Origin: Ulva prolifera
Taxonomy: Eukaryota > Chlorophyta > Ulvophyceae > Ulvales > Ulvaceae
Length of the DNA stretch: 64,000 bases
Assembly (NCBI GenBank): GCA_023078555.1
Contig: CM041196.1
Span: 10,186,985-10,250,984, forward strand
Direction of reading: 5' to 3'
Numbering within the stretch: position 1 is the first letter of the stretch; every line of letters begins with the position of its first letter. The notes under the pieces were generated by a model, which was given only the letters and a program-made list of their open reading frames with translations, had not been told where the DNA came from and ran no database searches. The position numbers and the translations under genes were made by a program. This document shows, one piece after another, positions 17,526-50,401 of this stretch.

Positions 17526-17907
17526 GATAAAGATTTGTAGCACACATTTGAATTGCAATGGTAGCTCGATCTTTGATATGTATTGTTTGCATAAGGCTAG
17601 GTGAAGTGTTGGCATCATTTGCCTGCTATGTACTGCCGTTGAAACTGCGGTTGTAGGAACACTGCCTGTTTGTGCGACCCCCTCTTCAAGTACTGTGGCC
17701 GTATTCCATGCTTCCAACATATTACACATCCGCATGAGGTGAATACTCATCATTAACAAAAAGCTGCTCTGGAAACGTGCTGCTCTGGAAACCTGCTGCA
17801 ATGCATGAGGCGCTGGCTGCGTGTGACGCTGTGGCCATGCGTAGACATGGCATCCTGCATGGAAGTCGGTCCACGATAGTTCAATAAATTGATATCAACA
17901 ACGACAC
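17526..17907. other. Spacer between RbcX and channelrhodopsin (head-to-tail)
   Basis: Only 382 bp separate the RbcX stop from the channelrhodopsin start, so this must contain the RbcX 3' end and the channelrhodopsin promoter and leader. An AT-rich patch (caataaattgatatc) sits about 25 nt before the start codon. No other element is recognised. Confidence 0.5.
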
Positions 17908-20438
17908 ATGGCTCCCACTGCGGAAGCAATTGGTGCCTTCAGTGGAACAGGGCCCGTAGTGTGTGCCGTCACATCCCGTTGTTCTTCTCCGTACCACAAC
18001 AGCGTCTTAAGTATGGGTGGTGTCATGTCTGTGAATGAAGGTCCGGAAGGAGAGACCTATGAATTTTTCTCCACTTGCGGGCCAATCGTTCAAGGGTACC
18101 CGGATCCGTCAAAGTACTACCTGGCCAATGACCTGGGGCCGGACTGCCCGACGAACGTCTGCGTGAAAGCAGGGCAGCTCGAATTCGGAGCTCCGTGGGA
18201 ACAATCGTTTGCTATTGGCCTTGTTTGGTTCACTCTCATCTCCTCCATCGCGCTGTGGTTCTTTTACACATGGTCTACGTTCAAGGCGACATGCGGTTGG
18301 GAAGAGTTTTACGTTGTGAATATGGAAAGTACGATTTTCATTTAATGGATTGCTGCCAAGTTCGGCCCTTGTGGTGCTTGAACGACAATGACAGCCCTTC
18401 TCCATCTTGCTTTGGAGTGCCGTGAGTGCCCAGTGACGAGGCCTCCCGCTGCTACCTGTACTGTCATGACCAGCTTACTTACGGTGCATTCACCGCATTG
18501 ATATGACGAGCCATTCCGACGTGCTTGGTAATTCAGACCATTTCAATGTTTGCGGCTGCGTGCAGCCCTCAAAGTTCTGATCGAGCTGCGACTTGAGTAC
18601 GAGTCACCTGCAATGATATACCAGGTTAATGGGTCAGCAGCCCCCTGGATCAGATATGCAGAGTGGTTGCTCACTTGTCCGGTTCGTTCCCACCATGCGG
18701 TGTTTCGCGCGCGGCCTGCTATGGTGGTGCACAGGCACCCGCTCTGCAGGTTATTCTCATTCATCTCAGCAACCTGACGGGGCTCAACGGCGAATATTCG
18801 CGTCGCACTATGTTCCTGCTCGTATCTGACCTGGGCACCATCGTCTGGGGCGTTTCTGCAGCGAATGCGACAGGAGCTGCCAAGGCCATATTCTTTTGTG
18901 TGGGTTTGATATACGGCTCCAACACGTTTTACAACGCCGCCCGTGTTTACATTGAGGCGTTTCACACGGTGCCGAAAGGGATTTGCCGAAATCTGGTCAT
19001 GGCGCTGGCGTGGATGTTCTTCATGTCTTGGGGGATGTTCCCTCTCGGCTTTGTGGCAGGTGCGAAGGTTACTTTTTCCGGGTTGATCGTGGACGCATTG
19101 CGCAAGTATGGCTGGGCTTTCAGTTGATGCAGCTGCACCGTTCTCATCCATTTCGAGGTACCTGCAGGACCCGAAGGATCGAAGACCATTTCTTATGCCG
19201 GCTCCACGATTGTCCACACGTTTGCCGACCTTCTCTCCAAAAATCTTTGGGGCTTTGTTGCCAACTACTTGCGAGTTTGTATCCACAAGCATATCATCAT
19301 GTATGGAGATCTACGTAAGAAGGTCAAGGTCCAGGTTGCTGGCCAGGAGATGGAGCTGGAACAGTATCAAGATGAGCAGGACGATGAAACCATCAAGTAC
19401 TCAACTGAACCGCTGGCAAGCCGTAACTCGTTCATCAACATGCGCAATCAGATGCAGGCACAGGTGACGCCAGTAGTGACTGTGTGGATGGTTGTGTTAT
19501 GCTGTGTAGGTCGACTGGCTGGTCATCTCAATCAGGAACTGTGATTCTGCAATTGACTGACAGACGTGATGCTTTGGATTGCCCCCTTGATGCTGCATCG
19601 TGCATCTTATGCATGCGATTCTGTTACATGAAATAGCTTTGGCTGGCTCTGGTTGGAAAACCGCGGCTGAACTGCTGGTTTTTTGTTGGACAGGGCATTG
19701 AGACGCGCGCTTCACTGGACATGTCTGGCATGAATGGGAATTTCAATGCAATGCCATCAATGGGAGGCATGAAGATGATGCCACCTCAGATTCGGGCTGG
19801 GCGTGTTATCATTGGAGTTGCGGAGCCTGGTCATGCTGATGTCTTCCGATCCGCCTACGCTCAGCTTTCCTCCCAAATTGAAGTTGTCCCCGCTATGGGA
19901 CCAGAGAACGTATGGAGCACATGCCAGCAGGTGCCCTTCATGGCTCTTAAGAGTCGATTGCCCTTGACGGCTGTATGGCTGTACACTAAAAGCTCGTCTA
20001 CTGGCCTGCCTGCGTCAACGTGTCTGGCTGCTGCATGTGGCATTGATTCCAGAATCAGTCCTGTTCAATGTGAGCAAAGCCATTGAGCATTTGATGCCAT
20101 ACTGCAGATATGTGGACTGTGGTGTGATCAGTTCTGTCCTGCAGGCTGCGAACAGTGGTGGATTTGACTTTGTGTTCCTTCATCCTGAGTACCTCCGTGA
20201 CCGAAGTGGTGGAAGTCTGTTGGTTGCTCTTCGCAATAATGGTATCAGCGTGGCCGCATATGGTTATGAGCCTGGATTTGCTCATGAGCTCATCGCAAGT
20301 GCTGGAATCAATGTGTTCATGTCTGGTCCAACCCCACAAGGCCTGGATCTGACCATGCTTGGAAACCTGACAGCTCAGATGCAAGCGCAGGCTGGAATGA
20401 TGGCAGCATCCGGCGGCATCCAGGTGTGGCCAGCATAA
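17908..20438 (+). CDS. ChR: Channelrhodopsin (cation-type signature) with receiver-like C-terminal domain
   Basis: Light-gated ion channel of the algal eyespot/plasma membrane that drives phototaxis and photophobic responses. Six exons: 17908-18328, 18566-18681, 18750-19059, 19168-19463, 19694-19930, 20145-20438. All phases fit, giving 557 residues. From TM2 to TM7 it aligns with Chlamydomonas ChR2 without gaps at a constant offset of 50. The retinal Lys is K307 (LLSKNLWG; ChR2 K257), with counterions E173 and D303 (E123, D253) and the gating C178/D206 pair (C128/D156). H184 matches H134, and TM2 E140, K143, E147, E151 match E90, K93, E97, E101. CGWEE is also kept. These glutamates favour cation conduction. 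Residues from about 407 (GRVIIGVAEPGHADVF...) form the receiver-like domain known from ChR1/ChR2, with FVFLHPEYLRD. The very long Met/Gly-rich tail of ChR2 is absent, so the protein is shorter than its 737 residues. Codons are less GC-rich than in neighbouring SKI2. Confidence 0.96.
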
Positions 20439-21205: not shown

Positions 21206-21614
21206 CTATTCCATGCCGAGCAGCTCGACTTCGAATGTTAGAGTGGCATTCGCAGGAATGACAGGGGGGTACCCACGGGCTCCATAGGCATAGTCTGGAG
21301 TGCAGATCAATTTGGCCTTTTCACCCTTGCTCATCTGAGGAACTCCCTCATCCCATCCTTTGATGACTTGGCCAACACCCACCTGTACAAACAACATCAC
21401 TTGATGTTACTGAATACCTGCACCGACAGAGTTGCACACATGGATGTAATCATTAGAAACGTACGACAAACTGGAACGGCTTTCCTCGGTCGAGGGAGCT
21501 GTCGAATTTGCTCCCGTCGGCAAGGGTTCCGGTGTAGTGCATGATACACGTCTGGCCGGTTTTCGGGTAGTTGGCCCCGTCGCCCGCTTGAATTAGTTCC
21601 TTTGTGACGCCCAT
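21206..21614 (-). CDS. FKBP12: FKBP12-type peptidyl-prolyl cis-trans isomerase
   Basis: Single-domain FK506-binding protein that isomerises X-Pro bonds and is the cytosolic receptor for FK506/rapamycin. Two exons, 21614-21465 and 21382-21206, join in phase 0 to give 108 residues, the size usual for FKBP12. The sequence follows the family throughout: [55 protein letters not shown]. The active-site positions I can place are conserved (Tyr27, Phe37-Asp38, Phe47/Phe49, Val56-Ile57, Trp60, Tyr83). A cag just before the start codon context suggests a possible intron in the 5' untranslated region. No targeting peptide is seen, so it is probably cytosolic. Confidence 0.96.
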
Positions 21615-38160: not shown

Positions 38161-40449
38161 CTACTCGTCGAGAGGCTTGGCGACGCCGACGCCGGCGGCG
38201 CGGATGACGCGGCCGTTGAGCGCATAGCCGGCCTTGATGACGGCCGCGACGCGACCAGGGGCGATGTCGGCGGAGGGCACCTCGAACATCGCGTTGTGGA
38301 CGTTCGGGTCAAACTCGCCCCCGACCTCTGTCGGCACGCGCTCGAGGCCGCTCTCCTGGAAGATCTTGAACATCACCTGAATGTGAATGTACGTGACTTC
38401 ACCTGCAGCCTGCGGCCGACGGTGGCTACAGGTGCGGCACACCACGCGTGTGCCGAGGCACAACGGGCGTGTGGTGTGGGCGCTCTGCGCAGCGTGGTTG
38501 CTGACGCTGGTCGATGCATCACGATGTCGTGCGGTTGTGGTGTCGGCCGTGTGGCCGGGGACGTTTGCGGAGCGGCGCGGCCGGCACGGGCGCCCTCCGG
38601 CTGGCCTCCGGCTGGCCTGCAGGAGGGTGCTCATGCGCTCCACCGGGAGGGCTGCGCGTGGCCTCAGGAGATAGAACACCAGTATCTGTTCATTTACGCC
38701 ACAAAGGAGTAAAGTACTCCACAAAGTTGGTACACAACGGCCGACCAAGGCCGACAGACCGTTCCGGAAACGTGCCCGCATGACAATCTCCGCCAACACG
38801 AGCTGGAGGGACAGACTTGACGCTGGACGTTCGGGGCGGAATTTTTTTTTTAAATGCATTTTCACCTTTTTTGTGCCTTTTCCTGAGCACGTCGCCTCGT
38901 CGACTCGGGGAACACACCTTCTGTGACATCGCGACGCCGCCGTGGAGGCTGCTGAGGTTCTTCGCGACCAACTCGCACGTGACGGCGCCCTCCGCCTCAT
39001 CCCCGCCGCCCCCTCGCGCCAACCCCGCGCCGCCGTCCTTCGCGGCCTCCAGCACGTTCCCCGGCACGCTGTCCAGCGCACGCTCAAGGTTATCCGCAAC
39101 GTCGAGGATGTTCTTGCAGAACCCCTGCACGCCGTGCGAGGATCGCACACGCGCTGGACCGAGGCCGCAACCGACCGGAGAATGACGAAATCACCGAGCC
39201 CCGGCGCCCCCGCACACAAAACAGCAACAAGAATGTTGGGGAAGATGGAGGGGAGATGCCGGTGGGGTCAGGTCGTACCTGCAGCGCGAATTGTCGGGTC
39301 TCCTCCATCTGCTGGGTGGTGCGTTTGCGGAGGTTGTCCATGTCGGCCATGACCGAGACGGCGCGGCTGCGGACCGCCTCGAGCTCCTCTTCCAGCTCCT
39401 CTACCCGAGCCTGCTTCTCTGACAGCTGCCCCTGTACAGACTCCCAACCCGGTTCATAGCCGCAACGCGTACTTGTGGCTGTATGCACGCACATGGAGCA
39501 AGCCGAGTGGTTCATTTATGGAGGTGTCTGTCCCCTCACAGCATGGGCAGCAGGAGTGGTGGTGTGGCATTTGGCCGGGGTGCAAGTGGATGGAACATAG
39601 TCCGACGTGACAAGCTGGCAGAGGGTCACAGACGGTGTCTACAGGTGTCGGTGGACGAATGGTGTTTCGTCAGATAGGCTGCAGGTGGGATGGGTGAGAG
39701 TGGAGCGAAAGTATGCACACTGTGTGCTCTGCACAAGGCCAGACCGGCCTGCAGGCAAGCATGTGCGAGCACGAGTCGAACCACAAAAATTCATTCATGA
39801 TAGGCTTCATTGATATGTACAGCCCACTTTGGACGGTCGAGACCTGGACGAATCATGCTGAACAGGACAGGGCAGCTGTGCACAGTCTCTGGAGAGCAGG
39901 GAGTGCTTGTGCTTTTTTCTGGGAGGTCAGCATCGATGTCGAAACGCAGTTTTCGGCAGTTCAGTGCCTTGCATTCCTCTCGACGAAGGTCAGCCTGGCC
40001 ATTGGTTTGTGGAGGGGAGTCTCGATGGCTGCATGGCCCTCAACAACCAGCCACAAGTCGAAGGAGCAGCGAACCGCTTCCAGATACTAGAACTTTACAG
40101 ATGTGACTGATTAATACCACAATAATGTTGAAGCAGGCTTTTGCCGAAAGTTTGCGTGCGGCACGAGGCATTTAGGTGTCTGCGATTCCAGAAGGGACCG
40201 AGAGCATACCTGAAGCTCGGCTACGCTGCCGTCTTCGGCGCTAGCCTCGGCATCAGATTCAGATGCACCAGTTTCTGCTTCCGCGGTGGCCTCGGTCTTC
40301 GCGTCTCCGTCCTTCGGCTCCGATGCACTCGCAAACGCAGCTGTGCGGGGTGCTCGTTGCATTGCATCCGCAGCAAGCATTATTTGACGCGAAAGAATTT
40401 GCAACAGGGATGGATTGGATGATGTCGCTTGCACTGCGCGGCGTAACAT
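38161..40449 (-). CDS. MGE1: Mitochondrial-type GrpE nucleotide-exchange factor
   Basis: GrpE/Mge1 releases ADP from organellar Hsp70 and so drives protein import and folding. Four exons, 40449-40210, 39431-39279, 39124-38918 and 38376-38161, join in phase 0 throughout and give 271 residues. The N-terminus MLRRAVQATSSNPSLLQILSRQ is basic, amphipathic and free of acidic residues, as in a mitochondrial presequence. An acidic linker (about residues 50-80) follows, then the long GrpE helix (EELEEELEAVRSRAVSVMADMDNLRKRTTQQ). The head comes next, with NILDVADNLERAL and the C-terminal beta wing (PNVHNAMFEVPS, APGRVAAVIKAGYALNGRVIRAAGVGVAK). An in-frame ATG at 40575 would add 42 residues that look less like a targeting peptide. 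A plastid location cannot be excluded. Confidence 0.94.
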
Positions 40450-42567: not shown

Positions 42568-45500
42568 ATGGGTTCAAAGCAACGAGTACATGACGTCGTG
42601 ATCATCGGAGGAGGCGTTGCGGGCCTATCTGCCGCGAAAGAGCTGCAACGTCACGGCTGCGACGATGTATGCGTTGTGGAAGCGCAGAATCGGCTCGGCG
42701 GGCGTGTGAAACAGGTCCACGGCATCGCGCCCTGGGCTCTGGATGCTGGCGCCGAGCTGGTGCACGGCCAGCGCAGCACTGTCGCGTCTCTCCTCGTTGA
42801 TGACATCAAGGCTGATCTGGTGAAGAAGGAGTATCCGAACTACGTGTACTGGCGAGACAGCGGCGAAATTGCGTGCGCCTGCGGCGAAGGAGGCGAGAGC
42901 GAAGACACCGCAGTCGATAGCACGTTCAACCTGATAGAGCAGGTACGAAATTCTGGAGGCTTTATTGTTGTCAGGATCTGTGGTAGCCCTCCATGCCGAT
43001 TGACTTTCGTGCAGTACTCGAGAGTCGATGAGTCCATGCCTCGGGCAGTCCGCCACCGCATACGGTCCCGCATCCGCCGAATCCACGCACACGTTGTCGA
43101 AGTTGCGAGAAGCGCTCACGTTGGAGGCGTGGAGCATGATGGCTGTGTCCTGCGTTGACCAAACTCGCTGGCCGCCGGCCCGTTGACGGACAGGTTGTTT
43201 GGTGCCGATCTGCGCTTTGTCGCGGCGCTGTGCCCCAGGTCCTCAAACTTGAGATTTTATTGTAAAAGGCTGTTTTCGTGTGGCACTTGTATGTCGGTCC
43301 TTGCGTGATGTGCACCTGCCCTGACGGAGATGTTCTCGATGACAGCGCCCCACGTTCGTGGACGCCGAGGCGACAGGTCTGCAAAAATTCACAGAACGCA
43401 CCACTCGATGCATACATTTCCTGACGGTCACCAGGACGTTCTTGCTGCTAGGCGTCGTGTGCTGGCCGGCGGTCTGAACGTACATCTGCCGCGCGCTGCC
43501 TATCACAAGTACTTAACCGAAGAGGCAGTGGGATAGCAGTGGAGGACCACAGAAGCATCTGCCGTGCGCTGTGTGGTGCGTGCTGCGGGCCAGATTCGTA
43601 AATCTGTTCTGTCACGGATGAGTCCTGCAGTCACTTCGCGGTTGCATACAAACCCCGACAAAGATCCTGTAGCGTATCAGGCCCTGCGGTGTCTCACATG
43701 GCATCGAATGTCGAACGCGCTGGCGCCTCAACATGAGTGCAAACTCGGGCAGGTTGCCAGCGCTGCATGCCTCTCCCTGTAAGCGCAGAGCAAGGGTAGG
43801 AAGGGCAGAGCACCAGCTGCATGCCTTGATCTGCCACACCTATACAGATGTTCGCGGAAAGCTCTGCTGCGAGGCGGCAGTCATGTGAGGTACATGCATG
43901 TCAGCGCTCAAGCATGTAGGGGTGCGAGTGGGTCGATCACCTCTTCCGGTCACAGCATAGCCCCGCCGTCCGGCTACGTTACCTTGTCTCAGATTGTGTG
44001 CTCTGCGAAGCCTGTGCTAGATCTGTTGCGCTAGTGAAAGTCCACCGATCTGACCGAGAGCTGGCCTCCAGAGACAGCCTCTGATCACTGAAGAAGCGGC
44101 AGTGCACTTGCTGCACAGCCCTGTCTCCTCCGCAGGTGCACGTTCATGTTTCGGACATCTCCATCTGTCATCGAATCACAGATTACCTCCCCCCCCCGTC
44201 CCCCTTCCCGTCCCCCATGCATGTGCCATGTCAACAATACACTTGTCACAAGGCACTTCAGCAAGGCCGCGTGCAGACACGGTGAGATGCTGCATCAGGC
44301 CATCAGGTGCGTTCACCCGCACGGCATCGCACATCTTGCTCAGAGCCGTCCCGCCAGAAGCATTCGTGCCCAGCTCAGCCCCGACGCCATCCGTGAACAT
44401 CCAATCACTGAGATTCTGCACATCAACGCATGCTCCTCATGCGTGCAGCTTGCGGAGGTCTCACCGGACGACACCTCCGCGGACAAGACAGTGGAGCAGT
44501 GGTTCCGGGGGCGCTGCGACGCCGCAGCGTCTAAACGCGTGATGCCGCTGCTGGACGCGTACTACGCCAACGACCTGTGTTCGGACCTGCGCAGCCTGGG
44601 TGTGGCTGAGGCGGCGCTAGAAGCACGCAGCTGGAGCGATGGAGAGGACACGCTCGTGAAGGGGGGCACGATGGCCCCCCTCACGGCCGCGCTCTCACGC
44701 GGCGTGCCGCTGCGGCTGGGGTGGCCGGTGCGGGAGATCCGGTGGCGGGAGCAGGCAGGCGCGTGGAGCCGCGGCGGCGGTGCGGCGGCTCCGGAGGCGG
44801 CCGCGGAGGTCGTTGGAACAAACGGCGAGGTGCGTGCGTGCATGCATGCGTTACAAGAGCAGAACATCACCGTCCGCCGCTGGCATGCATCACTTCGGAC
44901 CATGCAAGGGTGGTGTCGAAGTGTCCGGATGTCCGATGTATGTGGCTTGCAGTGTATCCATGGTTGCTTTTGTGAGGTCCACCTGCCAAATTGTCTGTCT
45001 GGCCGAGGCAGACTGGAGCTTACACCATGCATGTCCCGGACCCAGTGCTGCCGGAGATAGATCTCAACACGATGTGCCAGTCTGGTAACTTGACCTATGC
45101 GCTCATCTGCTCTGACCATGCACACCGCCATTGCTGTTTGGGGACAACCCTGACTGCATGGCGTGCTGCAGGTCCTCCTAGCCCGCGCAGTCATCTGTGC
45201 CGTGCCGCTGACTCAGCTCCAGAAGCAGGCTCTGCAGCTGTCACCCGCCCCTGGCCCCGCCTTCCACCGCACCCTCCAAGCCACCCGCGTCCACAACGCC
45301 GTCAAGCTCTGGGCGGTCTTCAGGGTTCCCTTCTGGGAGAGCGCCGCGCCACTGCGCCGCGCCACCGCCGCCGCCGCCGCAGCCGCCCTCTCAGGGGATG
45401 AAATACCATCTGCGCTAGCCCTCGACGGCGTTCCATCCTACACGGGGTCCGATGACAAGACCGAGTCCGAGCTACAAACACATGCAGGAACTTCAGACAT

Positions 45501-46290
45501 GGAGAGGGCACCCGGCGCGCCGCGGCTCAAGCCCGCGCGAACCCTGGCCGCGACCTCGAGCCTTTCCGAGTCCACCCGCACCCTGAATGCGCAGTGCAGC
45601 ATTGATGCCTCTTCGCCTTCCGATGATGAGGACTCGGTCCCCTCCCGGACGGGCAGCCCCGCGCAGAGCTGCTCCAGCAACGGCACCGTAGAGGGGGTCG
45701 CGCCGGAGTTCTGGAACATGCTGTGCCCGGAATGCCCGGTTCCAGAGTTTTGGGTGCCACAGCACGCGCCTGACGGGCTCGAGGACGCGACGGGCGCGGC
45801 GGTGGTTGGCGCGGCAGACAGCGCGACAGGCGGCAGGCTCGCAGCGGCGCCGCTACCGGTGGAGTCTGTTCACGTGCTACAGGGTTTCGCATGCGCGGCG
45901 AAGGCTGACGCGCTGTCTGCCCTCGGCCCCGCAGCCGCAGTCCAGGTGTTTCTCGACCAGCTGGACCAGATCTTCAGCGCAGCGGACGCAAAGTCGCCCG
46001 CCGCGGCGGCTGCGGCGAGCCCGGCCAGCACCGCGTTTGTCCGCGGTGGGATCATGGACTGGGGGAAGGAACCCTACATCGAGGGGGGCTACTCGTCCCC
46101 GTCCGTCGGGCTGGAAGCCGGGGCGCGTGCCGTGTTGCAGGCGCTGCCGGGCGGCACCGTGTTCTTTGCGGGGGAGCACACGCACGAGCGGCTCAATGCG
46201 TGTCTACAGGGGGCCATGGAGACAGGCGTACGCGCCGCGACGCAGGCGATGCAGAGCCTCGGGGGCGGCCGGGGCCCCGAAGAATCGTGA
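42568..46290 (+). CDS. FAD-dependent amine oxidase (polyamine oxidase / LSD-like)
   Basis: Oxidises a secondary or primary amine with FAD, as polyamine oxidases and LSD-type demethylases do. Exons 42568-42942, 44449-44829 and 45172-46290 all join in phase 0 and give 624 residues. The N-terminal dinucleotide-binding fold is clear (DVVIIGGGVAGLSAAKEL, then VVEAQNRLGGRV with the GG-R motif, and DAGAELVHG). The substrate region has LLDAYYANDLCSDL. The second FAD contact is ARAVICAVPLTQLQ and the C-terminal FAD motif is TVFFAGEHTHERLNACLQGAMETG. An unusual Ser/Asp/Ala-rich insert of about 110 residues (roughly DNA 45380-45700) interrupts the substrate domain. No SWIRM or tower domain is visible, which argues against a true LSD1 and for a polyamine-oxidase-like enzyme. 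The first intron is 1.5 kb and contains C-rich stretches. No clear peroxisomal signal ends the protein. Confidence 0.88.
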
Positions 46291-48504: not shown

Positions 48505-50401
48505 CTATCGCGCCGATGGCTCGGTGGAACCCCAGGGGTCCGCGTGCCGCGTGCTGCGCTTCACGCTGTGCTGTGCTACGTTCGCCGACGGTGTTGTCAC
48601 CTCGGGCGCATCCTGAGAAGGCCTCCCACTGGGCCCCTCCTCCCCGCTTTCCCCCTCCTCTGGGTCCAGCACGTCCGCGAGCGCCTCCGCCGTCACCCTC
48701 CGTACAAACCAGACCGAATACGCCCCTGTAGCCACCGCGAGCACGCACGCCATCACTGTCACCACCGTCGAGTGGGACGCCGCGCCGTCCACCCCTGTAG
48801 CCACGGTCTCCATGGTCGCGGTCGTGTTCCCAGCCGCGCCGCCGGGGTGGAACAAATCCCCGCCGCGCGCCGCGGGGCCCCCCGACGACCACGCATGAGC
48901 CTGCAGCATCTGCAGCGCGCTGCCCGACGCGAGCCCGAGGTAGACCGCGACCACGACAAACGGGATGATCGCGACGGCGGACGCGGCGGAGTACTCCAGC
49001 AGCGAGATGCCGGTGAGGCCGAGGGCGTAGTTGAGGATGGTGAAGGGGATGCAGGGGGAGAGGCGCAGCACGAAAACGAGGCGCCAGCCCTCGCGGCGGA
49101 CGGCGGCGTCGACGGCGGGGAACTGCGGCCAGCGGGAGGTGATGAGGGTGCGGAGGGGGCGGTGGAGGAGGGAGCGGGCGAGGAGGAAGGCGAGGGTCTG
49201 GCCAAGGAGGTTAGCGGTGTACACGAGGATGATGCCCCAGTACAGCCCAAAGCACACGCCTGCATGCGGGCCATGCATGCTCAGCCTGGCGCACACGCCC
49301 GATGTGCCCTGAGCGTGAGCGCGGCATGTTGTGGTCTGACTTTCCCTTGCAGTGTGCTTCCACAAAGGGTCCGATCCGACCAACTTGATGCTGCACTGCT
49401 ATGGTGTGCTCCAGCATAGCTTTCTTCATGTGGATTTCGTGGGGCTGGTTCGCCTTGAGCTGGCTCGTGGGTCAAACAGTGCAGCATGTGCGGGGTTGCA
49501 CTGGAAACTACGGAGCCGTTGCAGCACCAGACGGCCTCGAATGGTCAATACACAGATGTACTATCAATCTGCAGCAATCGCGGAAGATGCACTGTGCGAT
49601 CGCTCGAGGTGCCGAGTCCGGGATGGGTATAGGTACAGGATGACCCTTGTGACAACCGAGCATAGCTTCAAGTAGCAGCCAGCATACACATCAAAGATAT
49701 CTAGTGCCAGAGTTGTGACACGACCTCACCGATTCATGGTGGGCATCGAGGAGTTGAGTGGAATACGCAGGCTCCAGCACTGCTGTCCGCCACGTGAAGG
49801 CATCAGTTTCATGCTGAAATGACGCAAGAACGACCGAAACATTGGCAAATTAGCATTGTGGGTGTCGCCGACCGAAGCATGGCGAATCCACAGGCGGGAG
49901 AGACAACCACCTGCCATGACAAGCCGATCATGACGCCATGATGCAACACTACAAAGGCGCGCCAGCAACACATTACGATCTTGACCGTCCAAAACACGGA
50001 GATAAATGGGGTGAATCGAGCGCACCTGCTAAGACGGCAAGGGCCGATGCTGGTAGCAACAGCAGCAAGCAGGCTGCATATCCAAGCACGAACACAACGC
50101 GGCCCTCTTGCTCATGCTGCTGCAGCCACTTCATCCATACGATCAGGTATGCATGGTCCCATGTATTGACTGCGACCAGGACGCAGAGCAAGCAGAAGAT
50201 CGCTGCAACGGCAGTGGAGGAAGGCCATTGTGCTGACGCACACTGTCGCCGTGACTGCCGAGGTTGATGAGGCGACAGTAAGGGATCGTGGTCGTTACGA
50301 ATTTCTCCGCTGGTTTTTCCTGCTGCAAGAGAAAGGACCACGGACTGAAGCTCTGGAGATGTCCGCTCCTCTGCGGTACATGCTGTCACGGGCATGGGCA
50401 A
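48505..50401 (-). CDS. VTT-domain membrane protein (TVP38/TMEM64/DedA superfamily)
   Basis: Polytopic protein of the VTT (SNARE-associated/DedA) family, whose members act as lipid scramblases or in membrane traffic. Two exons, 50401-50026 and 49259-48505, join in phase 1 to give 376 residues. Order: a soluble N-terminus of about 60 residues; TM1 (AVAAIFCLLCVLVAV); a second hydrophobic stretch (VFVLGYAACLLLLLPASALAVLAG). Then the VTT core: FGLYWGIILVYTANLLGQTLAFLLAR, the amphipathic part with WPQFPAVDAAVRREGWRLVFVLRLSPCIPF, NYALGLTGISLLEYSAAS, and IIPFVVVAVYLG. A last helix (VVTVMACVLAVATGAY) precedes an acidic Glu/Gly/Ser-rich tail. The RLSP-IPF-NY-GLT pattern is the family signature. Location (Golgi, ER or plastid) cannot be read from the sequence. 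Confidence 0.9.

Follow-up and report, generated by a model that had tools for sequence, protein, structure and literature searches.

The window analyzed here, a stretch of 64,000 nucleotides of the Ulva prolifera genome, contains a predicted channelrhodopsin gene (to be referred to as Ulva ChR) at positions 17908–20438 on the plus strand. The gene model has six exons, which give 557 codons followed by a TAA stop, and each of the five introns, which are between 68 and 237 bases long, has GT...AG boundaries, in agreement with the six exons closing to 557 residues that the first-pass annotation had proposed. Based on the residue map, exon 1 (17908–18328) encodes the start, the extracellular N-terminus, TM1 and the first part of TM2 (residues 1–140), including E132, E133 and E140 (E82, E83 and E90 in ChR2 of Chlamydomonas), and ends at a GTACGA donor. 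Exon 2 (18566–18681) provides the remainder of TM2 and part of TM3, with K143, E147, E151, R170, E173 and C178 (ChR2 K93, E97, E101, R120, E123 and C128). Exon 3 (18750–19059) runs from the end of TM3 through TM6 and contains H184, D206, T209, G213, F228, G231, W273 and F276 (ChR2 H134, D156, T159, G163, F178, G181, W223 and F226). TM7, with the counterion D303 and the retinal lysine K307, is located in exon 4 (19168–19463), followed by a juxtamembrane cytoplasmic segment. The acceptor of the third intron, at the start of this exon, was picked among nearby AGs as the one with which the GPEG motif of ChR2 aligns ungapped. As placed by the tail alignment, exon 5 (19694–19930) encodes a Met/Gly-rich linker and the beginning of the C-terminal domain (residues 382–460), and exon 6 (20145–20438) the remainder of this domain and the TAA stop (residues 461–557). 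All six exons are on the plus strand. The reading frame of exon 1 opens at 17893, shortly before the first ATG. Judging from this sequence, internal ATGs at residues 36 and 40 could be alternative starts, and there may be an additional exon upstream.

Several other genes were recognized in the window. An exon encoding the C-terminal portion of an FKBP-type prolyl isomerase (21209–21406, minus strand; Pfam FKBP_C, 2.4e-22) belongs to a gene that adjoins the Ulva ChR gene tail to tail. The C-terminal part of a GrpE co-chaperone is found at 38164–39267 on the minus strand (3.9e-19), and a VTT-domain (DedA-like) membrane protein at 48508–49398, also on the minus strand (Pfam VTT_dom, 6.9e-23). On the plus strand, two adjacent open frames at 44092–46287 correspond to consecutive portions of the flavin amine oxidase family and are probably one gene; the later frame has long Ser/Ala-rich stretches. 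Elsewhere in the assembly, a plastocyanin, assembled from two exons joined by eye at a GT-AG intron, is identical at 98 of 98 residues to PDB entry 7pcy, with 1iuz as the next best match. We take 7pcy to be the plastocyanin of Enteromorpha (now Ulva) prolifera, and 1iuz that of Ulva pertusa. By this match the host is very probably an Ulva, and a sister species close to U. prolifera would also fit. An exact search of the whole assembly for four copies of the telomere pattern TTTAGGG (28 bases) gave no match; either the assembly lacks the telomeres or they consist of a different repeat.

The Pfam search identifies a single family in Ulva ChR, Bac_rhodopsin, with an E value of 5.1e-42 and a score of 144.3 bits (cut-off 24.6). 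Its placement within this family is based on the score ranking from a phmmer search of the PDB sequences, in which 48 distinct sequences were matched. The first eight of the 48 are ChR2, ChR1/ChR2 chimeras and the Chrimson chimera, and the ninth is KnChR. Two of these chimeras are the engineered iC++, an anion-conducting design. The score is 343 bits (3.5e-101) for CrChR2 (6EID), 258 bits over 267 residues for the Chrimson chimera (5ZIH), and 179 bits for the seven-helix core of KnChR (9J7W), after which it drops to 46 bits or less for kalium channels, anion channelrhodopsins and pumps. With ChR2 (residues 30–303) as the query, the Chrimson chimera scores 345.5 bits and KnChR 188. By these phmmer scores (343 versus 345.5), Ulva ChR is about as near to ChR2 as Chrimson is. 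The ranking places its nearest kin among the chlorophyte cation channels, and not among anion channels, kalium channels or pumps. The proposal of a complete cation-type channelrhodopsin gene from a green alga outside Chlamydomonas is supported by the score against CrChR2 together with the conservation of the key residues (see below). No viral or bacterial relatives were found in the viral and genome contig collections with six exact peptide patterns, a search that reaches close relatives only.

A local alignment of Ulva ChR and ChR2 covers ChR2 residues 30–303, with 148 of the 273 aligned residues identical (54%) and one gap. This gap precedes residue 44, and from there to residue 303 the numbering differs by a constant +50, a longer range than the gapless offset from E90 through K257 first noted. 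The residues C34, S63, E82, E83, E90, K93, E97, E101, R120, E123, C128, H134, D156, E235, H249, D253, K257, N258 and R268 of ChR2 are all unchanged, and the earlier statement that the retinal lysine, the counterions, the Cys/Asp gate, His134 and the TM2 glutamates are kept is correct for each of the residues concerned (E82, E83, E90, E97, E101, E123, D253, C128, D156, H134 and K257). The retinal lysine in TM7, equivalent to K257, is K307, as expected of a seven-helix microbial rhodopsin. The five glutamates of TM2 and the adjoining loop (E132, E133, E140, E147 and E151) and the carboxylate at the E123 position (E173) are all present. The C128/D156 pair corresponds to C178 and D206, and the central gate of S63, E90 and N258 to S113, E140 and N308. 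In comparison, C36 is replaced by a lysine (K87), and as a result the pattern of disulfides at the dimer end may be different. Other differences from ChR2 are Val at Q56, Ala at R115, Pro at Q117 and Asn at H265, and the three consecutive phenylalanines F98, F99 and F100 are Leu, Arg and Leu.

The five-glutamate pattern is described in PMC8406140 and PMC8818676. According to the former, the anion channels known at the time lack a carboxylate at the E123 position and at the majority, if not all, of the five positions. The same source reports some tested core-chlorophyte homologs without channel current, in which the analyzed positions carried Glu82 as the sole glutamate or no glutamate at all, and indicates that the meaning of the pattern depends on the wider context. 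The first-pass reading that these glutamates mark cation channels therefore stands as a tendency, but not as an absolute rule.

The divergence from ChR2 is unevenly distributed among the helices. With helix limits that we assume for these counts, 22 of 23 residues are identical in TM3, but only 8 of 23 in TM2 and 7 of 23 in TM1, which are the most diverged helices of Ulva ChR. On a helical wheel of TM2 (ChR2 residues 82–103), seven of the eight positions within 60° of E90 are identical, compared to two of 14 elsewhere. This statistic is partly circular, as the glutamates defined the face; with the five glutamates left out, the counts are three of four on the pore face and one of 13 elsewhere. 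The arginine at the position of F99, R149 (codon 18589–18591), is located between the equivalents of E97 and E101, and by its helical angle (180° from E90) it points opposite the pore face.

The C-terminal tail appears to be related to that of CrChR2. In a one-sequence blastp search, 46 of 106 residues are identical (43%, 1e-26) to a CrChR2 tail sequence that was reconstructed independently of the database entry and with the query already known, and the match, although strong as it stands, is provisional. The Smith-Waterman score against this reconstructed sequence is 218, compared to no more than 53 in any of 1000 shuffles. Three peptides of the reconstructed sequence gave no match in a literature search. 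Given this similarity, the tail looks like the tail of the family rather than a new fusion. An unnamed tail domain may be common to the channelrhodopsins of Ulvophyceae and Chlorophyceae, about 43% conserved since the split of the two classes and without a detectable Pfam family, a suggestion that we make tentatively, at somewhat less than even probability.

The assembly (88,887,114 bases in 44 contigs) was searched for other members of the family. The Bac_rhodopsin profile finds two loci, the Ulva ChR gene and a gene on contig C6 (G000:C6, approximately 6196.4–6201.0 kb, minus strand), which has a score of 26.1 bits, above the cut-off. The latter encodes a histidine-kinase rhodopsin, with a DxxxK motif recognized by eye, followed by a HisKA domain (1.7e-10) and a receiver domain with the sequence DLVLLDCMMP (4.4e-17). 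A second channelrhodopsin was not found in the assembly with the Bac_rhodopsin profile, Ulva ChR and ChR2 as queries, the best candidates having been scored exon by exon, a procedure that may miss a diverged second copy. Ulva ChR and ChR2 matched the Ulva ChR gene and no other locus.

The retinal pocket was at first thought to be altered, with possible new spectral properties, based on the segments GVSAANATG (ChR2 residues 163–171) and FVANYLRVCIHKH (ChR2 residues 262–274). A comparison at 13 positions that we take to line the pocket does not bear this out, as all 13 have the same residue as in ChR2. Within the two segments, the only listed pocket position is the first Gly (163), which is unchanged. 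The unchanged pocket gives no pointer to a new color. According to PMC8818676, the blue-shifted PsChR2 and TsChR have Gly and Ala in place of Thr198 and Gly202 of C1C2, and this Gly/Ala pair is absent from Ulva ChR, which retains the equivalent T159 and G163. A functional channelrhodopsin with clearly altered color or kinetics is consistent with the 125 of 273 aligned positions that are unlike ChR2, with the divergence of TM1 and TM2 (7 and 8 of 23 residues identical), and with the F98L, F99R, F100L, Q56V, R115A and H265N differences. We nonetheless consider it unlikely, as the 13 listed positions, including T159 and G163, are unchanged, and so are C128 and D156, a pair that is tied to the lifetime of the open state according to PMC7902849.

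The C-terminal domain had also been described as receiver-like, and this raises an alternative for the function of the protein as a whole, in which it is mainly a signaling or proton-moving photoreceptor with little channel current and the tail is the receiver of a phosphorelay. By eye, the strand-like stretches RVIIGV and DFVFLH do resemble a receiver, and the same genome also encodes a histidine-kinase rhodopsin that has a genuine receiver. However, the receiver assignment finds no support in the profile searches. The tail (residues 381–557) matches no Pfam family at E values up to 10, in a search where the HMMER filters discard the majority of matches with E values greater than about 0.1, and among the PDB sequences it has no convincing match, the best E values being 0.29 for the tail alone and 0.69 for a two-sequence profile. 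With hhalign, the tail was also compared to two genuine receivers, the only two of the 10 receiver matches in the same assembly that are nearly full-length. It scored 11.1 by itself and 13.8 when the reconstructed ChR2 tail was included. These scores are no better than those of shuffled sequences (median of 9.8 and maximum of 14.5 for 60 shuffles of the tail by itself), whereas the two receivers score 39.8 against each other. The place of the phospho-accepting Asp appears to be occupied by a His (FLHPEYLRD) and that of the Lys by Gly/Ser (FMSGPTP), as judged by eye, with both places uncertain for want of a reliable alignment. An AlphaFold model of exon 6 alone is unusable (mean pLDDT of 46.7). 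The fold of the tail could still be related to that of receivers, but with the pore residues also retained, a phosphorelay function at the expense of the channel is very improbable. The probability that the gene is an unexpressed or decaying copy is close to negligible. That one channelrhodopsin copy was found in the assembly can be taken in its favor, and the 557 codons without a stop, the five canonical introns, the retained key residues and a tail that is 43% conserved relative to the reconstructed ChR2 tail all argue against it.

The reading that we prefer is that Ulva ChR belongs to the chlorophyte channelrhodopsins and acts as a light-gated cation channel, and from its sequence we regard this as highly probable. 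Points that weigh against this reading are the arginine R149 in TM2, the missing C36 and the core-chlorophyte homologs that gave no current. The protein has the features of an intact seven-helix opsin, with the retinal lysine, both counterions, the C128/D156 pair, the central gate, the five pore glutamates and a cytoplasmic tail. In the mechanism that we propose, absorption of blue to blue-green light would isomerize the all-trans retinal on K307, the proton of the Schiff base would be transferred to E173 or D303, and the pore between TM1, TM2, TM3 and TM7 would open to protons and cations. The resulting depolarization of the membrane that overlies the eyespot would steer the flagella of gametes and zoospores, and the tail would serve in targeting, scaffolding or regulation rather than in phosphotransfer.

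The channelrhodopsins of Chlamydomonas are located in the membrane over the eyespot, where they drive phototaxis (PMC9700795). By homology, there is a strong case that Ulva ChR acts in Ulva as these proteins do in Chlamydomonas phototaxis, and, by this analogy, it is likely to be the photoreceptor in the eyespot with which gametes and zoospores carry out phototaxis. Ulva gametes are biflagellate, with eyespots and positive phototaxis, as described in PMC6751216, and zygotes of U. partita were collected by negative phototaxis, according to PMC5601483. If this role is correct, how one receptor serves both positive phototaxis in gametes and negative phototaxis in zygotes is a question that can be asked in Ulva.

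Ulva ChR is a clear but unremarkable representative of a family that is already well known, and it leaves the picture of this family unchanged. The Ulvophyceae are already listed among the classes with channelrhodopsin sequences in PMC8818676, citing Rozenberg 2020. Among the matches listed in a search of the main texts of non-subscription papers, there is no paper on an Ulva channelrhodopsin; in PMC8891106 channelrhodopsin appears in the reference list only, and in PMC2781859 the same is true of Ulva. The present model describes a complete channelrhodopsin gene, with its tail, from a multicellular green seaweed, in which the eyespot is found only in the short-lived swimming cells. At the time of PMC8406140, expression tests covered only a few of the chlorophyte sequences, which numbered more than 150, and the Ulva protein would thus be a useful comparison in optogenetics and in studies of the unexplained cytoplasmic tail. 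If the tail domain is indeed shared, Ulva, with apparently a single gene, would be a simple system for probing its role.

Among known systems, Ulva ChR is most similar to CrChR2 (6EID), with which it shares 54% identity over 273 residues, the gate, the pore, the counterions and the listed pocket residues, and apparently also a tail domain (43% over 106 residues against the reconstructed CrChR2 tail). It differs from CrChR2 in its longer N-terminus (+50), the F99R substitution in TM2, the absence of C36 and the H265N substitution. In addition, its full length is 557 residues, compared to the 737 residues given for CrChR2 in PMC7902849. The histidine-kinase rhodopsin on C6 is a microbial rhodopsin like Ulva ChR, but it has a HisKA domain and a true receiver and, by score, is not a channelrhodopsin. 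Chrimson (in the 5ZIH chimera) is also a chlorophyte cation channel, matched with 258 bits over 267 residues, and is farther from Ulva ChR than CrChR2 is, by score only. KnChR of Klebsormidium nitens (9J7W) shares the seven-helix core (179 bits) and a long cytoplasmic tail. On the other hand, in KnChR the positions of ChR2 E83 and E101 are occupied by Val and Pro, and the tail includes a putative FimV domain, as described in PMC7902849, whereas Ulva ChR has both glutamates and a tail in which no Pfam domain was found.
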